The notes under the pieces were generated by a model. The model did not search any database and had not been told where the DNA came from. It saw only the letters and a program-made list of their open reading frames with translations. Source: Granulicella sp. dw_53 (GTDB taxonomy: Bacteria > Acidobacteriota > Terriglobia > Terriglobales > Acidobacteriaceae). From it: a DNA stretch of 64,000 nucleotides. The DNA lies in NCBI RefSeq assembly GCF_018449545.1, contig NZ_JAAVUR010000008.1:62001-126000 (forward strand), written 5' to 3'. Made by a program: the position numbers and the translations under genes. Shown here one piece after another: positions 497 through 29,178 of the stretch. How positions within the stretch are numbered: the stretch's first letter is position 1; every line of letters starts with the position of its first letter.

Positions 497-1461
497 GATC
501 GCAACTCCTTGTGGAGGCGCGCGTCGCCATCGCTTGAACTGGTGCGGTCGCGAGTCATCACCCGTCGCCATACTCCGGGAGTTACCCTGTGAATTCGCTT
601 GAAGGAGCGGTTGAGTGCCGATTGATCCGCAAATCCACACTGAATGGCGATCTCCGCGAGGGGCAGCCGGGAATTCGTCATAAGATCTCTCGCCCTATCC
701 ACCCGAAGTTCCGTCAACCACTTATAAGGCGGCCGGCGAAAAGTTTGTTTGAAGGCCCGAGCGAAGTGGCTCACTGATAGTTCGCATGCTGCGGCAACTT
801 GCTTGAGGGCAATGTTGCCGTCCAGATGAGCCTCCAATAACTCTGTTGCTCTTCGCATCTGCAGAAAAGAGAGTCCACCTTCAAACTTCGGAGCCGATAT
901 CGTCACACCGCCATACGAGGAGACAAAATGACAGTTCAAGGCATGCAAAATATAATCCAGGAAGATCTTCGAAACATGATTGGGTTGCGCTAGCGAGGTC
1001 AGAAGAGTCTTCCCCAAGTGGTAGACGACAGTATCAAATGCTCCAAGCGGCCAGACCAATCGCTTCACAGGCGGCAATCGATGGGCATATGCAACTTCAT
1101 CGAGAGCAGCTTGAGTGATATACACCACCAATGCGTCGAAGGGATTTGGTAGGAAAAGTGCGGGCTCCTCTTGTAAGTCGATTGCACTAACGCTCCCAAT
1201 TGGGTAAAGACCGCTCGATACCTTTTTGCGCCCAAAAAATTGCTCGAGAAAAGGTATAGCTTTGAGTTGCAATGCAACGAGATAGCCATGCTCACCAATG
1301 AGCGGAGGTGCAAATTCTGGAAGACCTTCGCTGCTCTGAACCCTCCCAAACGAGAACGAGGCAATCTCGGACAACTGGACTTCCGCAGTAGGAGAATCCC
1401 TGAGATACATGTTTTTGGCGAGTTGATTCCAGAACGTAGGGACTTCGATGGACGTCTCCAT
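493..1461 (-). CDS. AraC-family transcriptional regulator
   Basis: A 322-residue protein with a C-terminal AraC/XylS double helix-turn-helix in about the last 100 residues: the first helix region around EAHLDGNIALKQVAAACELS and the second around PLAEIAIQCGFADQSALNRS, followed by a RVTPGVWR-type ending. The N-terminal 200 residues are a ligand- or oligomer-sensing domain of no recognisable class. The length suits the family. It overlaps the next gene on the same strand by ATGA, and that gene is a diverged copy of it, so the two form a tandem duplicate. The target genes are unknown; the nearest divergent gene is the propeller protein at 1988. Confidence 0.88.
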   Translation of the reverse strand: METSIEVPTFWNQLAKNMYLRDSPTAEVQLSEIASFSFGRVQSSEGLPEFAPPLIGEHGYLVALQLKAIPFLEQFFGRKKVSSGLYPIGSVSAIDLQEEPALFLPNPFDALVVYITQAALDEVAYAHRLPPVKRLVWPLGAFDTVVYHLGKTLLTSLAQPNHVSKIFLDYILHALNCHFVSSYGGVTISAPKFEGGLSFLQMRRATELLEAHLDGNIALKQVAAACELSVSHFARAFKQTFRRPPYKWLTELRVDRARDLMTNSRLPLAEIAIQCGFADQSALNRSFKRIHRVTPGVWRRVMTRDRTSSSDGDARLHKELRS

Positions 1462-22621: not shown

Positions 22622-23784
22622 TTATGTGCCCCGGACGAGAAACCGGCGCTTGAGCCACTCTCTAACGGGTTCATCGTAGAGTTTGAGGCAGGCATATGCG
22701 ATCGTGATGCTTGCGGCTAATAGCAGTCCGCCCATCACGGCTCCGTACGTTGCGGGGATTTTATTGCGCGTGACCCAGGCGGTATAGACATAGATCAAGG
22801 GGTAGTGCGTGATATAGAGCGGATAGGATAGGTCTCCGAAGAACTTGCAAAGCCTGGTAGAAGATCTCCCAGTGATACTATCGCCTGCGCCCAGTGAGAC
22901 GATGATCGGGAAAAGACGATGATGCAAACTGATTCATATAGTCCGTTCATCCAGAGATCTTCGGGTCCTCCGATCCTGGGGACGGAAAAGATGGCGATGA
23001 GGAGGAGGCTGCAAACAAAGAACGCACCCTTGATGTTAATTTGCTTGCCCAGACGCATGAGAAGCATGCCGGCGAAGAAAGGGTAGAGCAGACGTGCAAA
23101 GCCAATGTGGAGTTGTGTCCGGTCTACAGACCATCCACCGATAACATCGCCGCGGGGCCCGAAGACCGCGAGGTGAACGAGGAGGCCACCGGAGAGGAGA
23201 ACAAATACACCGAGCGCTTTATTGGAGAGCTTGCGAAAGCCGATGGCATAGAGAATATTTGCAATGTACTCAAAAAAGAGGGACCAGGCTGGGCCGTCGA
23301 GCGGGTGCATCTCCTGCCATCCACGGATGTCCATGGAGGGGAGCAATGGGATCAGGGTAAAGCCGACCAGCATTACGATCAGCGTCTTCCAGACGGGCGT
23401 AGAGCTGACCAGCGGAAATACGGGACCGCTCTGAAAGTAAAAAAGGGCGGCTCCAATGATGCTTCCCATGATGACCATGGGCTGCAGGCGGATGAGCCGA
23501 CGTTTGTAGAAGTCCCATTGGGTCATCTTTCCCCAACGGTCATCGTAGGCATAGGCAACAACAAAACCGGATAAAAGGAAGAAGAAGTCTACTGCCAGAT
23601 ATCCGTGATTGATGATCTGCTTGAAGGGGCTGCCGCCCGCATACGTTTCAAAGGTATGAAAGATCACGACCATCAGAGAGGCTACGCCACGTAAGCCGTC
23701 GAGGATCTCGTAGTGACTTTTGGTTTGAAGAGACTCAGGTCCTTTGTTCATGGGTGCTGACAAGAATACATTGGCCAGCGTCAA
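22622..23784 (-). pseudogene. Acyltransferase-3 (OafA/YrhL-like) membrane protein, frameshifted
   Basis: Two overlapping frames together make one acyltransferase-3 protein. The 5' part (23784 down to about 22920) carries YEILDGLRGVASLMVVIFHTFE and VDFFFLLSGFVVAYAY, the usual start of the family. The 3' part (to 22622) continues with FFGDLSYPLYITHYPLIY and the last membrane segments. The switch occurs at a TTTT run near 22912 in the minus-strand sequence GTCTTTTCCCGATC; adding one T would restore the frame. It is either a true recent pseudogene or a homopolymer sequencing error. An ATG at 23751 is an alternative start. Confidence 0.8.
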
Positions 23785-25814: not shown

Positions 25815-26111
25815 TCAAATGTCAATCAAGTGGGTTACGTGGAGCAAGAAATCATCAGGCGAGATAACAGATGAAAGCCGATATACCTTTTTAGCCCTAA
25901 CCAGCATTTCATCAATCGTGCGTTGTTCTTCGATTGAGACCGTATGACAAAGGAGAAATAGGTCGTAGGGGATGGTGGATTTGACGGCATGCTCTTTAAA
26001 CTCGTCGGTGGTGGTCACGATATCGGTGGTGAAACCTGCAGACTCGAGAGGCAGCTTTCGAGTCAGTAATAGCTCCTCATCGCGACCGATGGCCAGAACG
26101 CGACGAGGATT
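25815..26111 (-). pseudogene. Receiver-like protein (copy A), 5' end lost, no phospho-Asp
   Basis: The frame from 26111 to 25815 aligns throughout with the receiver-like protein at 28492-28812: NPRRVLAIGRDEELLLTRK versus NPRRILIYGRDAVLLKTRR at the start, CHTV in both at the third strand, and SPDDFLLHV versus SPTDFLRHV at the end. A TAA at 26112-26114 precedes the homologous N-terminus and no ATG lies in it; the only start is a GTG at 26018, which would remove the first strand and helix. The usual phospho-accepting Asp position is taken by the CHTV segment. Expression of a short form from 26018 is possible. Confidence 0.6.
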
Positions 26112-26234
26112 TTATGTCTAGAGAGAGATTCACAGGACTGATGCTCACTCTACGCTGCGATACTCATTTAGTAGTCAGCTACACGACACAAAGCGAATAA
26201 AGCCAACTATCTTTGTTTACGCTACATCTCAGCG

Positions 26235-26285
26235 TTTGATGACACCAACGAAAGTAGTTTCGTGTCGGATTAATGACATCGGAGG
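26235..26285 (+). promoter_or_regulatory. Leader of copy A shared with copy B
   Basis: TTTGAYGACACMAACGWAAG at 26235-26254 and the ribosome-binding site GGAGG at 26281-26285 are shared with 28928-28947 and 28975-28979 at almost the same spacing to a TTG start. The conserved box lies about 36 bases before the start codon, so it may be an operator, a promoter part, or an mRNA element. Confidence 0.5.
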
Positions 26286-26289
26286 CTAC

Positions 26290-26682
26290 TTGCGAAACTT
26301 AGATCAAGTAGGTGCCGAACAAAGTATTCGCCTGGTGGCCAATGCGGTTGCAGCTTTGGCGAACCTGGTTTATCTCATCGAGCAAGAGCGATACGAACCG
26401 GACGAGGTCTTGAAATTTACAAGGATGGCTCATAATCCCCTCCGTTCTCTGACCAGGTTCGTTCAACAGTATCCAATGGACCCCAAAGATGGAGAGGATC
26501 GAATGGAAGAACCTTTGTTGATTTTGAACTCGGAACGACTGGATGGAGACCAATTGATGGTTCATTTTTCGGACTGTACTTATGCGATTCTATACTCCAG
26601 ACCAATTAGCGAAGCTTTCACCCGACAGGGAATCGGAAGAGACGAGTTCGGAATAGCTTATGTGGTGCGCCTCGTCATCTAA
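26290..26682 (+). CDS. Orphan DHp-like helical protein (copy A)
   Basis: A 130-residue protein. Residues about 10-57 (AEQSIRLVANAVAALANLVYLIEQERYEP...RSLTRFVQQYP) are homologous to the protein at 28984 and resemble the helix pair of histidine-kinase DHp domains of the HEINNPLEALTNLLYL type, but with no His at the phosphorylation position and no ATPase domain. The last 70 residues form a separate small beta-rich part (DGDQLMVHFSDCTYAILYS). The TTG at 26290 is chosen because GGAGG lies four bases before it and both copies share TTG-CGR-AAY; the frame is open to 26236. It is divergent from the receiver-like copy A. Confidence 0.65.
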   Translation: MRNLDQVGAEQSIRLVANAVAALANLVYLIEQERYEPDEVLKFTRMAHNPLRSLTRFVQQYPMDPKDGEDRMEEPLLILNSERLDGDQLMVHFSDCTYAILYSRPISEAFTRQGIGRDEFGIAYVVRLVI

Positions 26683-26963
26683 TCTTCGAAGCGTCCTCCG
26701 AACTTTCCTTTGACCTCTGTCAGTTCATAGCGGTTGGGGAACTCCACAATCTCCCCGGCACGAAGTTGATTGACGAGATGCTTTGCAAGTTCTGGTGAGA
26801 CTACTTTCGTGAAGTCTTTCTCAAACGTACCGACATTGACCGACCACCATTTATGCGACTCCTTCTCAGAAGCAGCTACGAAGGTAACGGTCTCTAAACG
26901 ACCCTTGAACACGCCTTCGGTCGAGAGGGAGGGAACGGCAACGAGTTTGTAGGTTTTCGCCAT
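26679..26963 (-). CDS. Small hypothetical protein
   Basis: A 94-residue Lys/Glu-rich soluble protein with no signal peptide or membrane segment (starts MAKTYKLVAVPSLSTEG, ends KGKFGGRFED). Alternating hydrophobic residues suggest a small beta fold. It converges with the DHp-like gene, the two overlapping by four bases at their stops. A GAGGA-type site lies about ten bases before the ATG. No family recognised. The Lys content is higher than in flanking conserved genes, consistent with an accessory gene. Confidence 0.55.
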   Translation of the reverse strand: MAKTYKLVAVPSLSTEGVFKGRLETVTFVAASEKESHKWWSVNVGTFEKDFTKVVSPELAKHLVNQLRAGEIVEFPNRYELTEVKGKFGGRFED

Positions 26964-27354
26964 TGGAAGATATCCTCGCGCTTTCTTCAGGTTTCGTACG
27001 TTGTTTGGTTAACTCGTCGTGCTGCGGACGTAAATTCTTGCCGAACGGTTGTGTAGGCCGTCGATTCAGGCTGCTACTCATAGGCGAATAATAGGCGAAA
27101 GTATTCGGTATGTCATCCACAGATTTTTATATTGAGAGTGCAGCCGAAAGCACTGTCCTAAGGCTGGAGCGCCCATCAACTTTTTCAACCCTGGTTGGAA
27201 TATTGTTGGCGATTCCTGGTTATAACAGTGGTTGCCACCTAAAACTGAGATTCTTCTCGCCACGTTCTGAAGCAGAAGCATAGGATCAACTCATGTTTGT
27301 TGCGCTTGGGAATTCAGTCAGGCACCAATCAGTCAATTCAGTGGTGTCTATTCC
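26964..27354. other. Intergenic, low-GC region
   Basis: No supported gene. ORFs of 60-85 codons here show no recognisable features and conflict with one another. It probably carries the promoter of the acyltransferase gene at 27355 and of the small gene at 26963. Confidence 0.4.
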
Positions 27355-28485
27355 ATGGCTGCATCGCAGAGCATTCTTGCAGAAGAACGATCCTCCGTAT
27401 CCTTGCCACTGGACGAGCCTCAGGGGTCCGGGTACGAACGTCACATCTTCGAACTTGACGGCATTCGAGGCATAGCCGCTCTGGCTGTCGTCTTCTGCCA
27501 TGTGGCTCAGCATGTGGTGATGTATTCCACTGGTCTTCTGCACGCCGTGCTGAATGTTTGTGTATTTGGGTTTCTTGGGGTGGATGTATTCTTCGCACTG
27601 TCCGGATTCCTAATCACGGGGATCCTGCTAAAGAAGCGGGACCGGAAGCACTATTACCGAAACTTCTATGCTCGCCGCATCCTTCGCTTAGCGCCTTGTT
27701 ATTTATTGATCATCGCGCTGGTGTGGATGTTTGTTCCTTTTAGCGGACCATTCTTACTGCTCTCTTTGGTTTATGCGGCGAACTTCGCGCCGTTATTCCA
27801 TATTCCTTATGCGTATGGAGTTCTATGGTCGCTCTCCGTGGAAGAACATTTCTATTTGATTTGGCCATGGGTGGTGCGGTTTGTTCGTCCGCGAGGAATC
27901 GCCATGGTATGCGTCGGAGTGTGTTTCTTGACTCCGGCGCTTCGTATCTACGAAGCGTACAGAGGTACTTTAACGTTCTACTTCTCCTGGGATCGCTTCG
28001 ATGGAATGGCCTGGGGCGGACTACTCGCTGTCGCCCTGTATTCGGGATGGATAACAAGAGAACGTCAAAAGAAGCTCCCGTTAGCTCTGCTGCTAAGCGC
28101 GTTATTCCTTTTCGCGAGTGCATTGTTGTACGTCCGATCCCGCGGGATGGGAGGCGCATTACTCTATAGCGCGTCGCCAATTTTTAGTGTTGTTGTGATA
28201 GCAATGGCTGTTACAGCTCATAGAAAGATGTTTTCGATACTTCGCTCTCCGTTACTGCGATTCTTTGGAGACATCAGCTATTGGGTTTATCTCTCACACT
28301 TCCTGGCTCTCAACCTGACGATGGATTTGCTCAAATCCAGACTCCCGCAAGCGGTTCAGCATGGTGGTTTCCCTTTGTGGGTGGTGGTCTTCAGCGCGAC
28401 ACTCATTCCGTCTGTGATAACTGGTGTGGCAGTGCGCCGATGGATCGAACTTCCAGCCTTGAGATTGAAAAATAGGTTCGCTTAG
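27355..28485 (+). CDS. Acyltransferase-3 (OafA/YrhL-like) membrane protein
   Basis: A 376-residue protein with about ten membrane segments. FELDGIRGIAALAVVFCHVAQHV near residue 30 provides the conserved Arg and His of the acyltransferase-3 family, followed by FLGVDVFFALSGFLITGIL and WSLSVEEHFYLIWP. These proteins O-acetylate surface sugars or lipids. No clear ribosome-binding site precedes the ATG, and the frame has no other good start nearby. It sits between the two copies of the duplicated small-gene pair and is unlike them. Confidence 0.83.
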   Translation: MAASQSILAEERSSVSLPLDEPQGSGYERHIFELDGIRGIAALAVVFCHVAQHVVMYSTGLLHAVLNVCVFGFLGVDVFFALSGFLITGILLKKRDRKHYYRNFYARRILRLAPCYLLIIALVWMFVPFSGPFLLLSLVYAANFAPLFHIPYAYGVLWSLSVEEHFYLIWPWVVRFVRPRGIAMVCVGVCFLTPALRIYEAYRGTLTFYFSWDRFDGMAWGGLLAVALYSGWITRERQKKLPLALLLSALFLFASALLYVRSRGMGGALLYSASPIFSVVVIAMAVTAHRKMFSILRSPLLRFFGDISYWVYLSHFLALNLTMDLLKSRLPQAVQHGGFPLWVVVFSATLIPSVITGVAVRRWIELPALRLKNRFA

Positions 28486-28491
28486 TTACGT

Positions 28492-28812
28492 CTACGCTGT
28501 GGAGACTAGCTCCCGGACGTGACGCAAGAAGTCTGTAGGCGAGATTGCAGTGGAGAGCGCGTAGAGCTCCGTGTTGGCCCGGTTGGCTGCCTCTCCCAAG
28601 GCTTGCTGCTCGTACTCTTCCACCGTGTGGCAAGCGATGAAGAGCCGGTAGGGTGGGTGGGCGTCGTCCAGGCATCGTTCGAGCTCTGCTGCACTTCCGG
28701 CGATGACAACTGAGAATCCAGCCTTCACCAGGATCGCTCGGCGAGTTTTAAGCAGCACTGCGTCCCGTCCATAGATGAGGATGCGGCGTGGATTGGAGTC
28801 GGGGGATGCCAT
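28492..28812 (-). CDS. Receiver-like protein without phospho-Asp (copy B)
   Basis: About 106 residues from the ATG at 28812 (the frame is open to 28899). The pattern of strands and helices matches a response-regulator receiver: PRRILIYGRDAVLL, AGFSVVIAGSAAEL, PYRLFIACHTV, and a C-terminal helix DFLRHVRELV. In a true receiver the end of the third strand carries the phosphorylated Asp; here the segment is CHTV at 61-64, and the homologous copy A has the same CHTV. It is divergent from the DHp-like gene at 28984. Phospho-independent signalling is inferred. Confidence 0.68.
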   Translation of the reverse strand: MASPDSNPRRILIYGRDAVLLKTRRAILVKAGFSVVIAGSAAELERCLDDAHPPYRLFIACHTVEEYEQQALGEAANRANTELYALSTAISPTDFLRHVRELVSTA

Positions 28813-28927
28813 ACAGATTGATTTCAATTTTATGATTGTGCGCTCGCGCCCAGCAACTTTAATGCGGCTTTTCATTCGACAGAGGCTGGTATAGGCCAAC
28901 CCTCATGCTTTGCCTCACATCTGAGGC

Positions 28928-28979
28928 TTTGACGACACAAACGTAAGGCGGTTTGATGTTGATTTCATAGCGTTGGAGG
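28928..28979 (+). promoter_or_regulatory. Leader of copy B shared with copy A
   Basis: Matches the box at 26235-26254 (two to three differences in 20 bases), followed by GGAGG at 28975-28979 just before a TTG start. The distance from box to start differs by one base between copies. Confidence 0.5.
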
Positions 28980-28983
28980 CTTC

Positions 28984-29178
28984 TTGCGGAACTCACCTTC
29001 CGGTAGAGCGGAACAGATAATTCAGGAGATGATTAACCCCGTCGAGGCTTTGGTTAATCTTAATTACCTAATCCAACATGAGCGTTATGACCCAGCGAAA
29101 GTACTGAGCTTAACCCGCATTGCTGATGGCCAGCTTCGATGTTTGACGGACATGATCCAACGCGGTCCAGAATACTGA
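28984..29178 (+). CDS. Orphan DHp-like helical protein (copy B)
   Basis: A 64-residue protein starting at TTG with GGAGG four bases upstream. INPVEALVNLNYLIQHERYDPAKVLSLTRIADGQLRCLTDMIQ resembles the first helices of a histidine-kinase DHp domain (INNPLEALTNLLYL type), with Gln where the phosphorylated His would be. It lacks the 70-residue C-terminal part of copy A. The pairing with a divergent, Asp-less receiver-like gene is the same as in copy A. The function is unknown. Confidence 0.6.
   Translation: MRNSPSGRAEQIIQEMINPVEALVNLNYLIQHERYDPAKVLSLTRIADGQLRCLTDMIQRGPEY

Follow-up and report, generated by a model that had tools for sequence, protein, structure and literature searches.

A pseudo-receiver and a short DHp-type hairpin are encoded as a recurring pair in Granulicella

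We analyzed a 64,000-nucleotide stretch of the Granulicella sp. dw_53 genome (hereafter, the window; contig NZ_JAAVUR010000008.1, positions 62,001 to 126,000), in which a receiver-like gene lies next to a gene for a short helical hairpin twice, at 25815-26682 (copy A) and 28492-29178 (copy B), just where a preliminary description of this DNA, made from its letters alone, had placed the duplicated pair. The receiver-like protein is a receiver core that has lost its acid pocket and its phospho-Asp, and its neighbor is, as judged by sequence, the DHp hairpin of a histidine kinase, devoid of both the ATPase domain and the phospho-His. With neither phosphate site left and the kinase part stripped of its engine, copies A and B cannot operate an ordinary His-to-Asp relay. 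At roughly even odds (about 0.5), we read the pair as a docking module that works without phosphorylation and stems from two-component parts, namely those of a pseudo-receiver/kinase operon.

Pseudo-receiver B (28492-28809, minus strand) is intact and 105 amino acids (aa) long if an ATG start is assumed; the ATG is a choice, as the open frame extends upstream to a TTG at 28899. Alignment with 3crn places Cys at the phospho-Asp position of both window receivers, and in pseudo-receiver B the two pocket acids are replaced by Gly and Arg. A Pfam search returned no family, PF00072 included, for either window receiver even at an expect value (E) of 10, and searches of the window proteins against Pfam, NCBIfam, and PHROGs gave nothing, or weak matches far under the cut-offs; the FrzS pseudo-receiver was among the weak profile matches (E 0.012). 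A contig scan with a single window protein as query found no relative. Modeled, a window-type pseudo-receiver takes on a (beta-alpha)4 arrangement recognizable as a receiver fold, and the model of pseudo-receiver B is shorter than a canonical receiver by one strand and one helix. As receiver homologues without the phospho-Asp and the acid pair, the window receivers fit the definition of a pseudo-receiver, or aspartate-less receiver. More specifically, among 58 aligned pseudo-receivers the Asp site is occupied by Cys in 53, by Gly in 4, and by Ser in 1, with a His adjacent to it in 45, and the first pocket acid is replaced by Gly in all 58. PF00072 is reached by 10 of these 58 at E 0.1 (best, 0.0068); published surveys of Asp-less receivers take PF00072 matches as their main starting point, and most of the present proteins are no such matches.

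Hairpin B (28984-29178, plus strand; 64 aa, TTG start, no ATPase domain) is preceded by GGAGG (28975-28979, plus strand), a candidate ribosome-binding site. In Pfam, neither window hairpin protein matched HisKA (PF00512); a library scan found no HATPase domain in hairpin A, and the whole of hairpin B spans 64 residues. When 8,467 open reading frames (ORFs) were scored with a kinase-only profile (12 full-length kinases), the E values were 9.4e-9 for hairpin B and 8.4e-5 for hairpin A, all 22 hairpin-only ORFs fell between 4.1e-15 and 8.4e-5, and the best other ORF of fewer than 190 codons reached 1.0. The 22 hairpins had been picked by a mixed profile of kinases and hairpins, and the kinase-only score is thus a test of their homology and not of their choice. 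Together with the model and profile evidence for the receivers, these scores bear out the two-component origin that had been proposed for the pair. Structure prediction was informative for one partner: whereas the receiver model is a shortened receiver fold, that of hairpin B consists of two helices (residues 5-32 and 37-59; model confidence [pLDDT], 88.7) that a fold search cannot separate from other hairpins, and the DHp identity therefore rests on sequence. Neither model shows a fold at odds with the proposed origin.

The loss of both phosphorylation residues from both copies, as described before, was confirmed, since Cys in the two receivers is matched in the hairpin alignment by Gln (hairpin B) and Arg (hairpin A) at the phospho-His site. 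Across 19 aligned hairpins (loci L044, L065, and L109 being left out), this site holds Arg in 7, His in 3, Ser in 2, Glu in 2, and Gln, Thr, Asp, Tyr, or Ala in 1 each; that is, the phospho-His is lost in 16/19 hairpins and kept in 11/11 kinases. Similarly, Glu one residue further on (H+1) is present in 10/11 kinases versus 8/19 hairpins, and Pro at H+5 in 11/11 versus 8/19. Retained in the hairpins are Glu at H+7 (18/19), Asn at H+11 (19/19), and Leu at H+12 (18/19).

Copy A has probably decayed in part. Pseudo-receiver A (25815-26111, minus strand; 98 codons) has no ATG, GTG, or TTG before 26018, and the 13 codons upstream of it contain four in-frame stops (TGA, TGA, TAG, and TAA); with the start codon missing and these stops directly upstream, the gene has probably decayed. 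The hairpin A ORF (26290-26682, plus strand; 130 residues, TTG start), which likewise follows a ribosome-binding-like GGAGG (26281-26285, plus strand), comprises the hairpin part (26290-26487), without the core Pro (H+5) and Glu (H+7), and an in-frame C-terminal extension (26488-26682). Copies A and B share 49% identity in the hairpin and 44% in the receiver. The TTG starts reported for the module hold for both hairpins; of the receivers, A has no start and B was assigned an ATG (with the TTG at 28899 possible).

Elsewhere in this genome, in whose contig numbering as used here the window belongs to contig 55, one pair is found on contig 8 (C8) and one on contig 11 (C11). Contig 11 additionally carries a damaged hairpin; the receiver next to it has only its first residues and then passes into other sequence. 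The C8 hairpin keeps a His and misses three residues, and that of the C11 pair keeps its His (HEVSNPLEAL), is truncated by a stop, and has no leader box upstream. The extension of hairpin A is similar to a small ORF that follows the C8 hairpin in another frame and to one beside the damaged C11 hairpin. The leader box, said to be kept in both window copies, is indeed kept: TTTGAYGACACMAACG occurs four times in the 6,151,722-base genome at no more than one mismatch (control, 0), its carriers being copy A (TTTGATGACACCAACG, 26235-26250, plus strand), copy B (TTTGACGACACAAACG, 28928-28943, plus strand), C8, and the damaged C11 remnant. A role of the box as a coding N terminus was considered and rejected; its frame is open in 3/4 copies, and because it is stopped in B and C8 differs from C11 by changes that seem by eye to be mostly non-synonymous, we take the box as probably untranslated. 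Scans of the two intergenic regions for sigma-70-like sites and terminators found none. Copy B is the sole pair of this genome to combine two seemingly whole genes with the loss of both sites and, since most copies there are damaged, its sole good candidate. Outside this genome, the nearest relatives of hairpin B among those compared are at L201 (67% over 43 residues) and L200 (55% over 56 residues).

By eye, a small ORF carrying the motif VEFPNRYEL, or one near it, runs convergently toward the hairpin gene at three places: in copy A (26679-26963, minus strand), in the C11 pair (L004, about 1086-1196, plus strand), and in genome G329 (L200, after the hairpin, minus strand). It is a conserved unknown neighbor of the hairpin gene.

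Recurrence, on which the preliminary description had made its proposal depend, was found not just on the two further contigs of this genome but also across the genus. Pseudo-receiver matches (E 1e-4) were detected in 32 of 62 genomes of the genus, 78 in total, of which 75 were recovered as ORFs (a match with internal stops and a weak one did not pass the profile cut-off, and the third lay at a contig end, outside the fetched set). A hairpin-only ORF adjoins 22 of these 75 pseudo-receivers, in 11 of the 62 genomes, and 13 of the 75 lie in tandem upstream of a kinase-length ORF. The back-to-back arrangement described for the window, that of copies A and B, is found in 14 of the 22 pairs, the remaining 8 being tandem (5 with the pseudo-receiver first and 3 with the hairpin first). 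One of the 13 kinase-length ORFs, L048 (520-1308), carries Gln where the phospho-His would be, its ATPase motif is altered, and it is possible that it represents an intermediate between kinase and hairpin. Within the Acidobacteriaceae, the pseudo-receiver was found in 248/398 genomes and 65/79 genera (E 1e-8), and in a draw from the phylum it was found in 28/396 genomes, 3 of them outside the family and in longer frames (313 to 1046 residues). Examination of 40 loci outside the genus, which were high-scoring matches of the family search and no random draw, revealed 42 pseudo-receivers, with a kinase in tandem downstream of 2, upstream of 1, and convergent to 1. None had a hairpin-only neighbor. 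The pseudo-receiver thus occurs throughout the family, and the hairpin pair is, as far as the sampling goes, a feature of the genus.

Relatives of both partners are under purifying selection in other species, which, with the phosphate-carrying residues lost, suggests a present role in binding in place of chemistry. As simple counts rather than estimates from a tree model, the ratios of nonsynonymous to synonymous differences per site (pN/pS) among L045, L049, and L093, from three species, ranged from 0.20 to 0.33 in the hairpin and from 0.32 to 0.37 in the receiver (Fisher p between 5.8e-5 and 1.5e-8). Likewise, we obtained 0.26 (hairpin) and 0.31 (receiver) for L087/L097, and 0.40 (hairpin, p 1.7e-3) and 0.31 (receiver) for L080/L082, in which the His is kept. 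Copies A and B gave 0.43 for the hairpin and 0.51 for the receiver, with synonymous sites near saturation, and the receivers of copy A and C8 gave 0.31. In L049, L071, and L087, the genome-wide hairpin match continues past a stop. On a receiver tree of 75 rows and few columns, in which 41 of 71 inner branches are open, the label for a hairpin partner needs 9 changes, at least 4 of them forced by starred branches; repeated gain or loss of the partner is thus likely. Moreover, distances between partners correlate (r 0.62, 33 pairs, p 0.0002 within genomes), also among the hairpin pairs taken separately (r 0.69, 20 pairs, p 0.0096; without L065 and L109); such a correlation is expected if the two travel as a unit.

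These data bear on the idea that the pairs are relics, i.e., remains of pseudo-receiver/kinase operons whose kinase was cut to its first helices and that have stopped working altogether. The missing start codon of receiver A, the truncated hairpin of the C11 pair, the broken second C11 hairpin with its receiver remnant, the C8 deletion, the broken frame of L201, and the intermediate-like L048 would all be accounted for in this way. Purifying selection on both proteins in the three species and in L087/L097 argues against it, as does the recurrence of the same reduced form, which follows from the 9 label changes (at least 4 forced) on a tree with that many open branches, and we consider it unlikely that the pairs are no longer functional.

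Receiver cores and DHp hairpins are the parts that meet in kinase-regulator complexes, and docking combined with titration is the simplest working model of the pair. The hairpin would dimerize as a DHp does, and the pseudo-receiver would dock on it via the old kinase:regulator interface, a putative contact. As pseudo-receivers of the same kind are encoded with a full kinase in relatives, the pseudo-receiver is probably a kinase-binding regulator; by analogy with Osp, a receiver-like protein described as stopping CckA by binding the kinase transmitter domain (PMC9430884), it would regulate kinase activity by binding, and the hairpin would probably titrate the pseudo-receiver or compete with the kinase for it. 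A bolder version, which we offer tentatively and deem rather improbable, is that within the genus kinases linked to Cys-type pseudo-receivers were several times independently pared down to nothing but the docking hairpin. The outcome would be a two-protein switch free of phosphate, composed of a receiver without an output face and a kinase without catalysis, that regulates signaling by binding alone and is perhaps gated at the Cys-His that took the place of the phospho-Asp.

Several observations weigh against the docking module. (i) Most copies of the pair in this genome are damaged, and of the two nearest outside relatives of hairpin B, L201 is frame-broken and L200 lies at a contig edge. (ii) Selection on hairpin A is weak (pN/pS 0.65 against C8, p 0.021), most comparisons involving the window copies are close to saturation at synonymous sites, and the best-supported selection set, that of the three species, has Gly rather than Cys at the Asp site. 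(iii) Linked genes can diverge in step without touching, and the distance correlation is no proof of contact. (iv) Neither a hairpin nor a kinase lies within 700 bases of 40 of the 75 pseudo-receivers, and none of the 13,672 ORFs in the fetched loci has both domains. (v) The genome-wide hairpin search found at least seven further short DHp ORFs with no pseudo-receiver in the fetched stretch; they include L200 and L201 as well as L206, which has a stop inside the hairpin match, and L207, a short kinase-like ORF with its His kept, was excluded from the hairpin count. At L205 (982-2196), a response regulator that has its Asp is followed, 57 bases on and on the same strand, by a DHp-only ORF without the His. 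Given these seven lone ORFs and the regulator in front of one of them, the partner of the hairpin need not be the pseudo-receiver; DHp dimers of other kinds and further regulators are candidates beside it. (vi) Position H+11, which we take to be among those that set kinase-regulator specificity, is His or Tyr in 10/11 pseudo-receiver-linked kinases versus Asn in 19/19 hairpins. A wider list of 29 kinases from the fetched loci has Asn in 16, His in 12, and Tyr in 1 at this position, with Asn in 15/17 of those that, by our own sorting, do not adjoin a pseudo-receiver. Because of this difference, the hairpins may neither descend from nor mimic the pseudo-receiver-linked kinases.

The last two points lend themselves to another reading, which we hold to be doubtful, in which both proteins work at separate jobs and adjacency reflects descent and not contact. 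The hairpin would then bind either a normal response regulator or other DHp dimers, on which it would act as a dominant-negative or anti-kinase subunit. This reading would explain the L202 to L204 hairpins, near which no pseudo-receiver was found, the regulator-linked hairpin of L205, and the Asn at H+11 that the hairpins share with kinases in general and not with most pseudo-receiver-linked ones; it would not lead one to expect 22 hairpins adjoining a pseudo-receiver in three gene orders, nor the correlation of partner distances within genomes. Least probable of all is a redox or metal site at the conserved Cys-His of the old phospho-Asp position, through which the pseudo-receiver would sense and would grip or release the hairpin: Cys in 53/58 and the neighboring His in 45/58 suit it, as does the rarity of Cys among Pfam-recognized Asp-less receivers (26 Cys-type sequences in a 2015 survey, PMC4395418), whereas in the three-species set, where selection is clearest, this residue is Gly.

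Apart from these genes, an acyltransferase-like ORF in the window (22795-23784, within 22622-23784, minus strand) stops early, and its C-terminal part seems to continue in another frame (22622-22927), which makes a frame change likely.

The docking module had been called undescribed, and this holds in part: no report of the module, of acidobacterial cases, or of DHp-only proteins was found in the open-licence literature, but pseudo-receivers and pseudo-histidine kinases are known as classes, and this pairing is a variant of them. The hairpin invites comparison with Sda, a small helical hairpin that inhibits sporulation histidine kinases (structure 3d36); both are small helical hairpins linked to histidine kinases, and whereas the hairpin described here is, as judged by sequence, a DHp, Sda is to our knowledge not derived from DHp. 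Osp, a single-domain protein resembling a receiver, exerts its effect on a kinase through direct binding, as is proposed for the pseudo-receiver; it comes from a different lineage, and no partner hairpin is mentioned in the text consulted (PMC9430884), the comparison being one of descriptions and not of sequences. Like pseudo-histidine kinases such as DivL, as these are portrayed in two papers (PMC4211667, PMC5361649), the hairpin is a kinase-derived protein that would be used for contacts and not as an ordinary kinase, but here the DHp hairpin alone remains (64 residues in copy B), with no ATPase domain and no sensor. A 2025 review calls the regulation of bacterial pseudo-receivers a mystery and gives the His as missing from 0.9% of HisKA domains (722/76,471; PMC12632262). 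The pseudo-receivers treated in that review and in the 2015 survey (PMC12632262, PMC4395418) share with ours a receiver fold without phospho-Asp chemistry; in contrast, the present family is almost confined to one bacterial family, has Gly for the first acid and Cys-His at the Asp site, and includes members paired with a dead kinase remnant.

What the genus offers is a pseudo-receiver together with a small protein that may be its partner, in an arrangement that nature has replicated, next to a live kinase in some cases and next to a dead remnant in others; pseudo-receiver switching therefore becomes testable with two small proteins. The finding draws attention, in addition, to a large receiver family mostly missed by the standard domain model.

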